Shown piece by piece: positions 54,648 through 59,370 of a stretch of DNA of 64,000 nucleotides. The position numbers and the translations under genes were made by a program. Source of the stretch: an uncultured Bacteroidales bacterium. GTDB lineage: Bacteria; Bacteroidota; Bacteroidia; Bacteroidales; CAIWKO01. Under the pieces are notes generated by a model. It did not search any database, was not told the DNA's origin, and worked only from the letters and a program-made list of their open reading frames with translations. The stretch is from contig CAIWKO010000026.1 of assembly GCA_903913285.1 (NCBI GenBank), positions 1-64,000 of the forward strand, in the 5' to 3' direction. How positions within the stretch are numbered: the stretch's first letter is position 1; each line of letters opens with the position of its first letter.

Positions 54648-55291
54648 GATTTTGTACTTTTTTCGTAGAATTTACAAATTGAAGATATTCCGCATTGCTT
54701 GCATAATGGTTTTCGCGCCATACACACATAACGTCCGTGCAATATCAACCAATGATGCGCAATCGAAATCTTGCTCACAGGTATATTCCGAACCAATTGT
54801 TTCTCGGTTTCTATGGGTGTTTTAGCTTTGTTCGTTAACCCGATTCTGGCAGCAACTCTGAATACATGCGTATCGACAGCCATAGTGGGTTTGTTATAAA
54901 CAACTGCCGCAATCACATTTGCTGTTTTACGTCCAACACCGGGCAGTTTTTGCAATTCATCAACATCATCAGGAACAATACCTTTAAAATCATGCTCCAG
55001 CATGGATGACATTCCTATCAGATGTTTTGTTTTATTATTAGGATATGAACACGTTCTGATCAGTTCAAAAACTTCTGTTTCTTTAGCTTTCGAAAGAGAT
55101 TTGGCATCAGGAAATCGTTTAAAAAAATCCGGAGTGATCATATTCACCCTTTTATCGGTGCATTGAGCAGATAATATCACTGCAACTAAAAGCTGATACG
55201 GAGTTTTATAAACAAGTTCTGTTTCCGCTTCCGGCTGATGAATTGAGAAATATTCAATAAAAAACTTATAGCGTTCTTTAACAGAGATCAT
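54644..55291 (-). CDS. nth: Endonuclease III
   Basis: This 215-residue DNA glycosylase/AP lyase removes oxidised pyrimidines. The helix-hairpin-helix LPGVGRKTA contains the catalytic Lys, and VDTHVFRVA carries the catalytic Asp. The C-terminal 4Fe-4S cluster cysteines are spaced C-x6-C-x2-C-x5-C over VCMARKPLCKQCGISSIC. I chose the ATG at 55291; a longer reading exists. It is the first gene of a two-gene unit with the PAS protein. Confidence 0.96.
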   Translation of the reverse strand: MISVKERYKFFIEYFSIHQPEAETELVYKTPYQLLVAVILSAQCTDKRVNMITPDFFKRFPDAKSLSKAKETEVFELIRTCSYPNNKTKHLIGMSSMLEHDFKGIVPDDVDELQKLPGVGRKTANVIAAVVYNKPTMAVDTHVFRVAARIGLTNKAKTPIETEKQLVRNIPVSKISIAHHWLILHGRYVCMARKPLCKQCGISSICKFYEKSTKS

Positions 55292-55316
55292 AATTACTAT
55301 TTTCAACAAAAATAAA

Positions 55317-55340
55317 AAAAAGCTCCGACGGGGAGCTTTT
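55317..55340 (-). terminator. Intrinsic terminator after the 89-aa gene
   Basis: Stem aaaagctcc/ggagctttt with a short loop, followed on the minus strand by a long T run. It ends transcription of the 89-residue gene before nth. Confidence 0.85.
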
Positions 55341-55345
55341 ATTAA

Positions 55346-55615
55346 TCAGTTTTTGATTATGGTTTTCAAATCCTGCTCATCAACATTCATGACTGCAAGT
55401 GATTTGGAATACGAAATAATCTCTTTTACTACTGAATCCGGTGGGTTTACCATGGTTTTCTCTATCTCGTTCCTCACATCGCTCATCCGAAGATATTCCT
55501 TATAAAGAATGTTTTCGGCTTTAATAGCTTCTTTGATAGAACTTTTAGCAGACATGTCGGTAATTTCATCGTAAACAAATAGTAGTAAATCGTCAAGAGT
55601 AATGGTTTTTTGCAT
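55346..55615 (-). CDS. Hypothetical protein (89 aa)
   Basis: I do not recognise this 89-residue protein, which looks all-helical and acidic (ITLDDLLLFVYDEITD, NPPDSVVKEIISYSKSL). It has no signal peptide. It is followed by a strong terminator and lies between the sigma factor and nth on the same strand. Its position next to an ECF sigma factor gene is like that of small anti-sigma or regulatory proteins, but it has no membrane segment or zinc motif, so this is only a thought. Confidence 0.65.
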   Translation of the reverse strand: MQKTITLDDLLLFVYDEITDMSAKSSIKEAIKAENILYKEYLRMSDVRNEIEKTMVNPPDSVVKEIISYSKSLAVMNVDEQDLKTIIKN

Positions 55616-55683
55616 AGGCCAATTTAAATTAGTTTTACAATCTGATTTAAAAACGACTTACAAAAAGTATTATTGTATCAGGG

Positions 55684-55716
55684 CAAAAAAAAACCGGAAA
55701 TTTCTTCCCGGTTTTT
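55684..55716 (-). terminator. Intrinsic terminator of the sigma factor gene
   Basis: Stem aaaaaccgg/ccggttttt around a 10-base loop, followed on the minus strand by a nine-base T run, starting 16 bases beyond the sigma factor stop. Confidence 0.85.
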
Positions 55717-55732
55717 ATCTTCTGTAAATTAA

Positions 55733-56320
55733 TCATGCAGTTAAGATCAATTCCTTTTCTTCAATCAATTTCCGCATATTGATCAGTGCATATCTCATTC
55801 TGCCTAAAGCAGTATTAATGCTGACATTCGTCGATTCAGCAATATCCTTAAAACTCATATCATAATAATGACGCATAATGAGAACTTCTTTTTGCTCTGC
55901 AGGCAAATAATCGATCAAGGCTCTCACATCACTATGTATCTGATCGCGCACCATTTTGTCTTCAATAGAATAATCAAAAATTCGTAAAGTATCAAAAATA
56001 TCATGCTCCTCACTGTTTTCAACCAACGGAATTCTTTTTGACTTTCTAAAATGGTCAATGATCAGGTTATGAGCAATACGCATAACCCATTGTAAAAACT
56101 TACCTTCCTCCTTGTAAGCTCCGGTTCTAAGAGTATTAACCACTTTTACAAAAGCATCCTGAAAGATATCTTCTGCCAAATGGGTATCTTTAACAACCAT
56201 TAGGATGTATGTAAAAACTCTTTTTTTGTGTCTGTTGATGAGTACTTCGAGACAAGAATGATTACCGTACAAATAACAATCAATTAACTCCTGATCGCTG
56301 GTCAATTGCTGCATAGGCAT
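55733..56320 (-). CDS. ECF-type RNA polymerase sigma-70 family factor
   Basis: This 195-residue sigma factor has region 2 at about 25-95 (EDIFQDAFVKVVNTL, FLQWVMRIAHNLIIDHFRK) and region 4 at about 135-190 (LPAEQKEVLIMRHYYDMSFKDIAES). An upstream TTG would add 21 residues, but ATG 56320 is preceded by a perfect Shine-Dalgarno sequence and matches the usual start of the family. It has its own promoter at 56453-56460 and a strong terminator. It is not next to a typical anti-sigma factor. Confidence 0.92.
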   Translation of the reverse strand: MPMQQLTSDQELIDCYLYGNHSCLEVLINRHKKRVFTYILMVVKDTHLAEDIFQDAFVKVVNTLRTGAYKEEGKFLQWVMRIAHNLIIDHFRKSKRIPLVENSEEHDIFDTLRIFDYSIEDKMVRDQIHSDVRALIDYLPAEQKEVLIMRHYYDMSFKDIAESTNVSINTALGRMRYALINMRKLIEEKELILTA

Positions 56321-56323
56321 ATT

Positions 56324-56331
56324 ACCTCCTT
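56324..56331 (-). promoter_or_regulatory. Perfect Shine-Dalgarno sequence of the sigma factor gene
   Basis: On the minus strand the start is preceded by aaggaggtaat, with aaggaggt at 56324-56331, 3 bases before the ATG at 56320. It is fully complementary to the anti-Shine-Dalgarno core ccucc. This is exceptional here: other starts in the window lack such a site, as expected in Bacteroidota. Confidence 0.85.
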
Positions 56332-56452
56332 TTTTAAATACAATTTTTAAAGGTAAATGTCTAGTCCGATAAATGTCCTCCAAGTTTTAGTTAAACAATA
56401 AAATCCAACTAATTAATGTAATAATCTATGGTAATATTCTTATTACAGAGTA

Positions 56453-56460
56453 CAAAGATA
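56453..56460 (-). promoter_or_regulatory. -7 promoter element of the sigma factor gene
   Basis: Minus-strand TATCTTTG matches TAnnTTTG. It leaves a leader of about 125 bases before ATG 56320. Confidence 0.6.
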
Positions 56461-56493
56461 CATAATTTTTCAAAAAAAGCAAAACAATTTTTA

Positions 56494-56501
56494 TAATTTT
56501 G
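56494..56501 (+). promoter_or_regulatory. -7 promoter element of uvrA
   Basis: TAATTTTG matches TAnnTTTG, 43 bases before the uvrA ATG. Confidence 0.6.
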
Positions 56502-56544
56502 AAAAAAATATCACTTACTCTATCTAACTTATTAATATCTACTA

Positions 56545-59370
56545 ATGAAATTTCCTGATATAGAATCATTTAGTTCTAAAGACCATATTATTATAAAAAA
56601 TGCCAGAGTTCATAACCTAAAAAATATTGATCTGGCAATTCCCAGAAATAAATTTATTGTTATTACCGGTTTATCCGGCTCCGGAAAATCATCTCTGGCA
56701 TTTGATACCATTTATGCAGAAGGGCAACGTCGTTATGTTGAAAGCTTAAGTTCTTATGCACGTCAATTTCTGGGGCGTATGCCGAAACCGGAAGTCGATT
56801 ACATCAAAGGTATTTGCCCGGCAATCGCCATTGAACAAAAGATAAAGACTCATAATCCCCGCTCAACCGTTGGCACTTCAACAGAAATTTATGATTTCAT
56901 CAAGTTGTTGTTTGCAAGAGTGGGCAAAACATATTCACCAGTTTCAGGAAACATTGTAAAAAAAGACACCATTACCGATGTTGTCGAATATATTTTATCG
57001 TTAAAAAAAGATAGTCAGGTTTTCGTTGAATGTCCCATGCTGATGGTAAAACAACGCAGTTTGGAAGAACAGCTTCAGATCATTCAACAGCAGGGATTCA
57101 GAAGAATTGTGGTAAACGGTGAACAGAAAAAGATCGAAGAATTCCAAATTCCGAAGAAGAAAGAGCTTAAGGATTTAAAAATAAATATTGTTATCGACAG
57201 GATCATCGTTTCGGACAAAGTTGCTGAAAGCCGCGACCGCATAACGGATTCTGTTCAAACTGCTTTTTATGAAGGCGGTGGAAAATGCATTATTGCCTCA
57301 GAAATTAAAGAAGAAAAAACCGAAAAGATCTATTCTGACAAATATGAACTGGACGGATTGGAATTTGAAGAGCCGTCGGTAAACCTGTTCACCTTCAATA
57401 ATCCTTTCGGAGCCTGCAAAACTTGCGAAGGTTTCGGAAGCATTATTGGCATTGATGAAGACCTTGTTATACCCAATAAAAACCTATCGATTTACGATGA
57501 AGCGGTTGCATGCTGGAAAGGTGAAAAAATGAGCGAATGGAAAGACCAACTTATAGCAACAGCCTATAAATTCGACTTCCCGATACATAAACCTTATTTT
57601 GAACTTACAGATGCCCAAAAAGAATTGCTTTGGACCGGCAACGAATATTTTAAGGGAATCAACGATTTTTTCAAGTTCGTGGAGGAGCAAACCTATAAAA
57701 TTCAATATAGGGTGATGCTTGCCCGCTATCGTGGGAAAACCGTTTGCCCCGATTGCAGGGGAACACGCCTGCGCAAAGATGCCACTTATGTGAAAATTGC
57801 AGGCAAATCAATCATAGATTTGGTTTTGATGCCGGTTAGCGGAGCTATTAAGTTTCTGGAATCAATTGAATTTAATGCTCACGACAGCCAGATCACGAAA
57901 AGTGTTTTGCCCGAAATCATCAATCGCCTGCAATTTCTGATGGATGTCGGATTAGGGTATTTGTCGCTGAATAGGGCTTCCAATTCGCTGTCGGGTGGTG
58001 AATCGCAGCGAATAAATTTGGCTACGGCACTCGGAAGCAGTTTGGTTGGATCTATGTATATTTTGGATGAACCCAGCATTGGTTTGCATCCGCGCGACAC
58101 CCAACGACTAATAAAGGTTTTGAAACGGCTGAGAAACATCGGTAATTCGGTGATTGTGGTTGAACATGATGAGGAGATCATTAAAGCCTCCGACCAGATA
58201 ATTGATATCGGCCCTCTTGCAGGCAGACACGGTGGTGAATTGATCTTTCAGGGAAATTTTAAAGAACTGATTGAAAATTCGGATTCGCTGACCTCGAAAT
58301 ATCTGAATAAAATCACTTCCATCCCACCTCCGAAATTCAGGAACCCGTGGAAACTTTTTATCGAAGTTACCGGTGCACATGAGCATAATTTGAAAAATAT
58401 AAATGTCAAGTTTCCGCTGCAGGTTCTTACGGTTGTTACCGGGGTTAGCGGTTCGGGCAAAACAACTTTGGTGAAGAAAATATTGTATGCCGCCCTGAAA
58501 AAGATCTATGGCGGATATTCGGATAAAACCGGGAAACATGCATCGCTCAAAGGAAATATCGAACGAATAGCCAATATTGAATATGTTGACCAAAATCCCA
58601 TTGGGAGGTCTTCGCGATCGAATCCCGTTACTTATATCAAAGCCTACGACGAAATCCGCAACCTGTTTGCTGAGCAGCAATTATCAAAGGTCAGGGGATT
58701 TAAGCCGGGATACTTTTCATTCAACATTCCGGGCGGCCGCTGCGAAGAATGTCAGGGCGACGGATTTGTGGTGATAGAGATGCAGTTTATGGCCGACATC
58801 AACCTGGTTTGCGACAATTGCCAGGGAAAACGATTTAAGGATGAGGTACTCGATATTATGTGGAACGGGAAAAATATTACCGATGTGCTCGACCTGACCA
58901 TAGACGAGGCATTGGTTTTTTTCGACCGGCCCGGTAAAAAACATACTACCGAAGAACGTATCGTTGAAAAATTGCGACCGTTGGCTGATGTGGGGCTTGG
59001 TTATGTGAAACTCGGGCAACCGTCGAGCACGCTGAGCGGCGGCGAAGCACAACGATTGAAACTGGCTACATTTCTGTCGAAAGGAAGCGTTGATAAACCT
59101 ACCCTGTTTATTTTCGACGAACCCACCACGGGACTTCACCTCCACGACATTCATAAACTTTACGAAGCTTTTATTGCACTTATTGAAAAAGGACATACCA
59201 TTATTGTGATCGAGCATAATATTGAACTGATAAAATGCGCCGATTGGATCATTGATATGGGCCCCGAAGGCGGCGATGCCGGAGGCAATATTGTTTTTGA
59301 AGGAATCCCGGAAGACCTGGTGAAATGTCAAGATTCGTTTACGGGAAAATATCTGGCGGAAAAGCTGTGA
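56545..59370 (+). CDS. uvrA: UvrABC excision nuclease subunit A
   Basis: This 941-residue ABC-type ATPase finds bulky DNA lesions and loads UvrB. Two ATPase modules are seen, with Walker A GLSGSGKSSL near 44-52 and GVSGSGKTTL near 640. Their signature sequences are LSGGESQRINLA and LSGGEAQRLKLA. The third zinc module (CEECQGDG, CDNCQGKRF) is intact. The first zinc module keeps CKTCEGFG, but its other CxxC pair is replaced by YSDKYELDG, a change I believe is common in Bacteroidota UvrA. It is divergent from the sigma factor gene. Confidence 0.97.
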   Translation: MKFPDIESFSSKDHIIIKNARVHNLKNIDLAIPRNKFIVITGLSGSGKSSLAFDTIYAEGQRRYVESLSSYARQFLGRMPKPEVDYIKGICPAIAIEQKIKTHNPRSTVGTSTEIYDFIKLLFARVGKTYSPVSGNIVKKDTITDVVEYILSLKKDSQVFVECPMLMVKQRSLEEQLQIIQQQGFRRIVVNGEQKKIEEFQIPKKKELKDLKINIVIDRIIVSDKVAESRDRITDSVQTAFYEGGGKCIIASEIKEEKTEKIYSDKYELDGLEFEEPSVNLFTFNNPFGACKTCEGFGSIIGIDEDLVIPNKNLSIYDEAVACWKGEKMSEWKDQLIATAYKFDFPIHKPYFELTDAQKELLWTGNEYFKGINDFFKFVEEQTYKIQYRVMLARYRGKTVCPDCRGTRLRKDATYVKIAGKSIIDLVLMPVSGAIKFLESIEFNAHDSQITKSVLPEIINRLQFLMDVGLGYLSLNRASNSLSGGESQRINLATALGSSLVGSMYILDEPSIGLHPRDTQRLIKVLKRLRNIGNSVIVVEHDEEIIKASDQIIDIGPLAGRHGGELIFQGNFKELIENSDSLTSKYLNKITSIPPPKFRNPWKLFIEVTGAHEHNLKNINVKFPLQVLTVVTGVSGSGKTTLVKKILYAALKKIYGGYSDKTGKHASLKGNIERIANIEYVDQNPIGRSSRSNPVTYIKAYDEIRNLFAEQQLSKVRGFKPGYFSFNIPGGRCEECQGDGFVVIEMQFMADINLVCDNCQGKRFKDEVLDIMWNGKNITDVLDLTIDEALVFFDRPGKKHTTEERIVEKLRPLADVGLGYVKLGQPSSTLSGGEAQRLKLATFLSKGSVDKPTLFIFDEPTTGLHLHDIHKLYEAFIALIEKGHTIIVIEHNIELIKCADWIIDMGPEGGDAGGNIVFEGIPEDLVKCQDSFTGKYLAEKL

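Follow-up and report, generated by a model that had tools for sequence, protein, structure and literature searches.

A conserved leader RNA that probably hides the Shine-Dalgarno site and start codon of an ECF sigma factor gene in Bacteroidia

Bacteroidia are described in PMC9976891 as hardly using Shine-Dalgarno (SD) sequences, apart from rpsU, rpsR and certain other genes of ribosomal proteins. Most Flavobacteriales have a single SD gene per genome. According to PMC9976891, the SD of rpsU in F. johnsoniae is read by ribosomes with an exposed anti-SD, which lack the protein bS21, ribosomes deficient in bS21 favour strong SDs, and the bS21 residue that was mutated is tyrosine 54 (PMC9976891). 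The word 'sigma' occurs once in the main text of that paper, as a supplier name only. The gene considered here comes from an uncultured Bacteroidales bacterium and lies in a 64 kb stretch of DNA, which was analysed as a whole (the window). A first-pass annotation had singled it out as the gene of an ECF sigma factor with a perfect SD, which might be translated only by ribosomes lacking a protein that covers their anti-SD. Our analysis suggests that this SD probably forms the 3' arm of a hairpin that would occlude the start, within a conserved 5' leader RNA of the sigma factor gene (Table 1). The leader looks like a so far undescribed conserved cis-regulatory RNA of Bacteroidia, situated before one ECF sigma factor.

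Table 1. Features of the sigma factor locus, in positions of the window
Feature	Position	Strand	Basis or remark
Predicted -33 promoter box TTTG, 19 nt upstream of the -7 box	56480..56483	minus	
Predicted -7 promoter box TATCTTTG (TAnnTTTG)	56453..56460	minus	
Whole conserved leader	56318..56387	minus	covariance model R1, 55.3 bits; the sequence itself is in the training set
Distal SD-like GGAGGA, with its GGAG ending 7 nt upstream of the AUH triplet	56376..56381	minus	
Conserved, mostly unpaired block TTATCGG with AUH triplet ATC (56370-56368; H is A, C or U)	56366..56372	minus	
Hairpin 5' arm core TTTACCTTT, internal anti-SD-like stretch	56349..56357	minus	
Hairpin 3' arm AAAGGAGGTAAT, holds the SD and abuts the start codon	56321..56332	minus	fold and co-variation
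Proximal SD AAGGAGGT	56324..56331	minus	motif match; -13.6 kcal/mol pairing
ECF-type sigma-70 factor gene, 195 aa	55733..56320, including the stop codon	minus	Sigma70_r2 and Sigma70_r4
Small ORF, 89 aa, directly 3' of the sigma gene	55346..55615	minus	no relevant family match

Both Sigma70_r2 and Sigma70_r4, i.e. regions 2 and 4 of sigma-70, were detected in the 195 aa product, while its top NCBIfam match, PRK12513, scores under the cut-off of that family. Orthologs of the gene are present in 171 of 198 genomes of the order and in 105 of 119 genomes of the class. The minus strand around the start reads ...TTTAAAAAAGGAGGTAATATGCCT... (longer stretch: AAGGAGGTAATATG), and the first ATG, at 56320, is the likely start, because the third codon, also ATG here, is ATT in the closest relative (L004). 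Neither Pfam nor NCBIfam gives a relevant match for the small ORF downstream. At a similar downstream place, 12 of the 17 ortholog loci inspected have an ORF of 58-89 aa, and several of these small ORFs share a similar C-terminal stretch, e.g. NYSxAL. No anti-sigma partner adjoining the sigma gene was recognised in the window, with only the 89 aa ORF downstream. Membership in the EcfO-Reo system, whose Reo component is reported to span every compartment from the cytoplasm to the surface (PMC13114119), was considered and rejected, as the neighbour in the window is only 89 aa long and no large envelope-spanning anti-sigma gene adjoins.

The first-pass annotation placed the SD three bases before the ATG, and this is correct: AAGGAGGT (56331-56324) is separated by AAT from the ATG at 56320. 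Across both strands of the 64 kb, the exact AAGGAGGT has this single copy; with at most one mismatch there are 40 matches, compared with 32.8 expected. Among the 48 window ORFs of at least 150 aa, called mechanically from the first ATG and uncurated, the sigma ORF shows the strongest pairing with the 16S tail (-13.6 kcal/mol; next -8.8, median -2.35 kcal/mol). The 16S 3' tail (ASD) used for the pairing energies is an assumed sequence, and the program differs from that of PMC9976891; a search of this assembly for the 16S 3' end (CCUCC tail) gave no match, and the rRNA operon may be absent from the assembly.

In the whole genome, AAGGAGGTNNNATG was found twice, and AAGGAGG-N2-9-ATG matched 48 times versus 39 times for the reversed pattern, so that such sites barely exceed the background. 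By reading, 13 or 14 of these 48 sites were judged to precede plausible genes besides the sigma gene, and the sigma SD is therefore rare, not unique; the gene is not the sole SD gene of its genome, as would be the case in most Flavobacteriales. Several of these other likely genes pair equally or more strongly. Five likely genes (L037, L051, L035, L054 and L001) have SDs about equal to or stronger than that of the sigma gene, their kinds being cytochrome bd subunit II, Na/H exchanger, a Pfam-less ORF, Band_7 and CarboxypepD_reg. The pairing energies of strong sites in this genome include -17.6 kcal/mol for cytochrome bd subunit II, -15.6 kcal/mol for the Na/H exchanger, -13.4 kcal/mol for the Band_7 protein and -12.2 kcal/mol for an S30AE-family hibernation factor; the gene of the latter (L050, C23:20695), with the SD AAAAGGAGGAATTATG, is located about 1 kb from rpsU. 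The rpsU gene itself (C23:19514) is without GGAGG (AAAGAAAGAGAG, -9.6 kcal/mol), and the SD pairing of rpsR amounts to only -2.2 kcal/mol.

The upstream regions of orthologs were read in three sets: 110 loci of the order (30 best matches and 80 more), 80 loci of named genomes (the best of 576, including Pedobacter and Mucilaginibacter) and 40 loci from other families of the class, chosen from the 105 class genomes with a sigma match. GGAGG lies within 20 nt of the sigma start in 53 of the 110 order loci and is absent there in the remaining 57; of the 78 further ORFs in these loci that have 150 aa or more, 0 carry it. In the set L162-L221 it is found in 4 of 60 loci (L165, L170, L189 and L215), none of them from Pedobacter or Mucilaginibacter. 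Of the non-redundant order leaders, 42 of 90 have a calculated proximal pairing of -11 kcal/mol or lower, as have 1 of 10 non-redundant leaders of L162-L221 and 10 of 34 class leaders; for mock windows placed further upstream the counts are 2 of 90, 0 of 10 and 0 of 34. The level of -13 kcal/mol is reached in the order by 15 of 90 and in the class set by 8 of 34, the value for the gene studied here being -13.6.

Most leaders share the pattern GGAGGA..YUAUMGA....UYUACYCUUUU, followed by a loop and by a start-adjoining strand complementary to the 5' arm, which is AAAAGGAGGU(AG) or AAAAGGGAGGC in the SD-bearing lineages and AAAAGUAG or similar elsewhere. The search for the core of this pattern was lenient: a score of 9 is reached by 31% of shuffles, and one of 11 by 2.2% of them and by 92% of the selected leaders. 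Leaders without an acceptable core were omitted (10 of the 190 in the order and named sets, 6 of the 40 in the class set); 11 of the 190 are absent from the arm-swap test before thinning to 109, and 12 of the 110 were left out of the arm test of the order loci. In Prevotella sp. oral taxon 299 (L283), the start region ATGAAG is by eye complementary to the 5' arm CTTCAT; if translation begins at the first in-frame ATG, the AUG would thus lie inside the hairpin.

Evidence for the hairpin comes from exchanging its arms between orthologs. Among 109 non-redundant leaders (<85% protein identity), the energy of arm pairing rises from -6.12 kcal/mol for the true partners to -4.60 kcal/mol for the swapped ones (z -9.6). 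The true partner remains better by 0.99 kcal/mol when swaps are confined to the five nearest relatives (better in 77 of 109, p 1.5e-6), a test in which two decoy arm pairings had no effect; in a third decoy, which sets the upstream block against the 5' arm, pairing was weaker than expected (+0.30, p 0.0017). The class leaders, fetched after the hairpin hypothesis was formed, behave in the same way: the 34 usable of 40 gave -6.52 versus -4.60 kcal/mol, with 0 of 20000 permutations as low and relatedness uncorrected, and the 33 that are left without L247, which repeats an earlier genome, gave -6.55 versus -4.60, again with 0 of 20000 permutations and relatedness uncorrected. The arms match both in leaders with GGAGG (n=60, -7.39 versus -6.39 kcal/mol) and, as a group, in those without it (n=83, -5.36 versus -3.61 kcal/mol). 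On this comparative evidence the leader arms are shown to co-vary as RNA, also in orthologs without an SD, and the SD and the hairpin appear to be partly separable among orthologs.

Counting of base pairs agrees in part. In 33 sequences, 82.3% are paired, a level reached by 0 of 500 shuffles and compared with 57-67% in slid registers; 21 cells are changed on both sides versus 11.5 in shuffles, and the covariation is 0.192 versus 0.067-0.165 in slid registers. The number of pairs with two-sided changes in this set, 5, is not unusual, being matched by 94 of 500 shuffles. In 87 sequences fitted to the model, 77.6% are paired, with slid registers +1 and +2 coming close (74.6% and 73.3%); 49 cells are changed on both sides versus 30.0 in shuffles, and 8 of 11 pairs show two-sided changes, which is not unusual, since 167 of 500 shuffles reach 8. 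RNAalifold found no consensus structure on the MAFFT alignment (A1), single-sequence folds surpass shuffles only slightly (mean z -0.9 over 180; 45% below -1), and the hairpin is poor in some orthologs, e.g. L086, L110, L119, L127, L271 and L277. For the leader studied here, the predicted unpaired fractions at 37 C are 0.09 for the SD, 0.09 for the start codon and 0.72 for the AUH block. Two alternative pairings, one between the upstream block and the 3' arm and one between the GGAG block and the 5' arm, found no support.

The leader is found almost only at this gene. In 149 genomes of the order, all 57 matches of covariance model R1 at E<0.01, of which at least 21 were training sequences, lie directly upstream of the sigma gene, and the first match away from it has an E-value of 0.028 (G097). 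With model R2, 22 of 24 matches at E<0.01 in 119 class genomes are at the sigma gene, 11 of the 24 being training sequences. The models overlook many leaders: any match at E<=1 was obtained in 79 of 149 genomes with R1 and in 46 of 119 with R2. Nine non-sigma matches were inspected, of which eight resemble chance matches and one may be a second leader; the latter (L284:166-234, plus strand, R2 E-value 0.003) is leader-like and precedes a 153 aa ORF in a distant class genome, possibly a second gene of this kind. No second copy was found in the genome studied here, either by the motif pattern or by the leader model, and the bare core pattern shows no excess in 60 genomes (116 matches versus 211 for the reversed control). 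An Rfam search of 55200-57000 returned 14 weak matches, none at the gathering score. No description of the leader was recognised in the literature, judged mostly by titles and the openings of abstracts; the leader of an ortholog could be among the 64 structured 5' regions reported for F. psychrophilum (PMC9723704).

In 77 of the 110 order loci, the sequence TAnnTTTG, given as the -7 consensus of Bacteroidetes in PMC7366714, occurs at a distance of 80-200 nt before the start; the reversed control gives 17 such loci and shuffles give 13.4. Because this box is situated further upstream, the conserved block presumably belongs to the 5' UTR, which would be about 125 nt long here. Comparison across genomes thereby shows the leader to be conserved in Bacteroidales and other Bacteroidia, nearly exclusive to the sigma gene and placed inside the predicted transcript.

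The upstream part of the leader resembles an initiation site. A distal GGAG is present in 77 of the 109 non-redundant orthologs, 33-95 nt upstream of the start, and in 66 of these 77, counted without core scoring, an AUN triplet follows exactly 7 or 8 nt past it, with C (37), A (28), U (1) and never G as the third base. Over 143 leaders the triplet is AUA in 79, AUC in 59, AUU in 5 and AUG in 0; it is preceded by U in 140 and followed by G in 138, counts that follow a search favouring those letters. Distal SD pairing of -8 kcal/mol or lower was calculated for 59 of 90 order leaders, against 3 of 90 mock windows. Few class leaders have a distal GGAG (4 of 34, all at 7-8 nt), and the YUAUHG block is kept in orders without it. 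The 5' arm starts 10-13 nt past the A of AUH in 140 of 143 leaders, the search having allowed 9-14 and favoured 11; judged by the toeprint distance, this is close enough for a 30S subunit to reach. Initiation of the infC type takes place at AUU, AUC or AUA. These same triplets, AUA, AUC and AUU, are discriminated against by IF3 as starts (PMC4611024). A conserved two-codon ORF (AUH-Gnn-stop) was considered but not adopted, the third triplet being a stop in 57 of 143 leaders versus 44.2 expected from the column frequencies.

The mechanism we propose has two states. With the hairpin closed, the SD and the start codon would be hidden and the sigma factor hardly translated; an occupied upstream block would hold the 5' arm open, exposing the start site and allowing synthesis of the sigma factor. 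The freed strand would be an extended SD in the SD-bearing lineages and would favour ribosomes with an exposed anti-SD. The occupant of the block could be a protein, or a 30S subunit placed on the distal SD and the AUH triplet with a footprint reaching the 5' arm downstream. The first of these possibilities, that a ribosomal or other RNA-binding protein on the unpaired YUAUHG block stabilises or opens the hairpin and that the ribosome is not the sensor, is a serious if tentative one, to which we give somewhat less than even chances. A dedicated protein fits the retention of the block in orders that lack the distal GGAG, and the block is also kept from pairing with the 5' arm; the fixed spacing of 7-8 nt between GGAG and AUH and the absence of AUG would, however, be unexpected for a generic protein site. 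It is exactly this spacing and the lack of AUG that a ribosome at a decoy start fits. In this form, which we regard as rather improbable, the leader would be a sensor of ribosome state: GGAG-N7/8-AUH-G would be a decoy initiation site, and a 30S subunit parked on it would open the hairpin and turn the sigma factor on. Having no AUG, the decoy would be held only by initiation complexes that escape checking, through a bS21-free anti-SD or through little IF3.

Control by the SD alone, through which ribosomes with an exposed anti-SD (no bS21) would act on the sigma gene as the first-pass annotation had it, we consider unlikely, although part of that proposal stands. The SD is rare, strong and recurrent in orthologs, the bS21 of this genome carries tyrosine 54 (residue counted by hand), and the pairing of -13.6 kcal/mol goes beyond the -13 given for rpsU in PMC9976891, where another program was used. 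In L248, L260 and L278 the 3' arm is complementary to the 5' arm without GGAGG, so that complementarity does not demand an SD, and the SD seems to have been selected additionally. Other findings speak against it: more than half of the order loci lack GGAGG, only the minority of order leaders counted above reach -13 kcal/mol, the arms match without an SD too, further genes of the genome have equally strong SDs, and rpsU itself is without GGAGG here. As the SD and the start codon are predicted to lie in the hairpin, exposure of the anti-SD alone need not suffice. The bS21 idea is compatible with the leader but unproven, and the SD-less orthologs are beyond its reach; a bS21 link could act at either of the two SD-like sites.

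An RNA thermometer, in which the A/U-rich hairpin would melt on warming and free the start, is still less probable. The stem over the start is weak, and the SD and the start are predicted to be paired at low temperature; the predicted opening is gradual over 15-50 C, with the SD unpaired at 0.02 at 15 C, 0.09 at 37 C and 0.15 at 50 C, so that a sharp thermometer is not favoured, and a thermometer would not need the conserved upstream block. Finally, conserved blocks upstream of ECF genes are often autoregulatory promoters, but that the block works at the DNA level as such a promoter, recognised by its own sigma factor and with no RNA element, is very improbable in view of the TAnnTTTG box further upstream, the single occurrence of the motif in its own genome, the lack of excess of the core in 60 genomes, the model matches lying nearly all before the sigma gene and the co-variation of the arms as RNA.

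If the leader with its start-occluding hairpin works as we propose, it would provide translational control of a transcription regulator without a recognised adjoining anti-sigma factor, and a second natural kind of mRNA for asking when ribosomes use their anti-SD. The sigma factor is present in most sampled genomes of the class, and in many lineages its leader has SD-like sites that are placed with start-codon precision and then, as predicted, hidden. Should the ribosome-sensor form of the mechanism be true, a transcription programme would be coupled to faulty or immature ribosomes.

Among described systems, EcfO-Reo (PMC13114119) has in common with this locus an ECF sigma factor of Bacteroidales. 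With infC-type initiation (for IF3, PMC4611024) the leader shares an SD at the optimal distance from AUA, AUC or AUU, with AUG unseen, but its site precedes a hairpin and not a coding sequence, and a conserved frame behind it was not found. Like SD-occluding leaders such as RNA thermometers and translational riboswitches, it possesses an anti-SD-like 5' arm that covers the SD and the start codon, whereas it stays below Rfam thresholds, its sensor block is short and unpaired, and it belongs to an SD-poor phylum. The autoregulation of rpsU (PMC9976891) differs in concerning another gene, and the sigma leader in having its SD in a hairpin, an SD that is dispensable among orthologs, a conserved upstream block and several SD genes in its genome; the two share a strong SD in a group that avoids SDs and the predicted reading by ribosomes with an exposed anti-SD.
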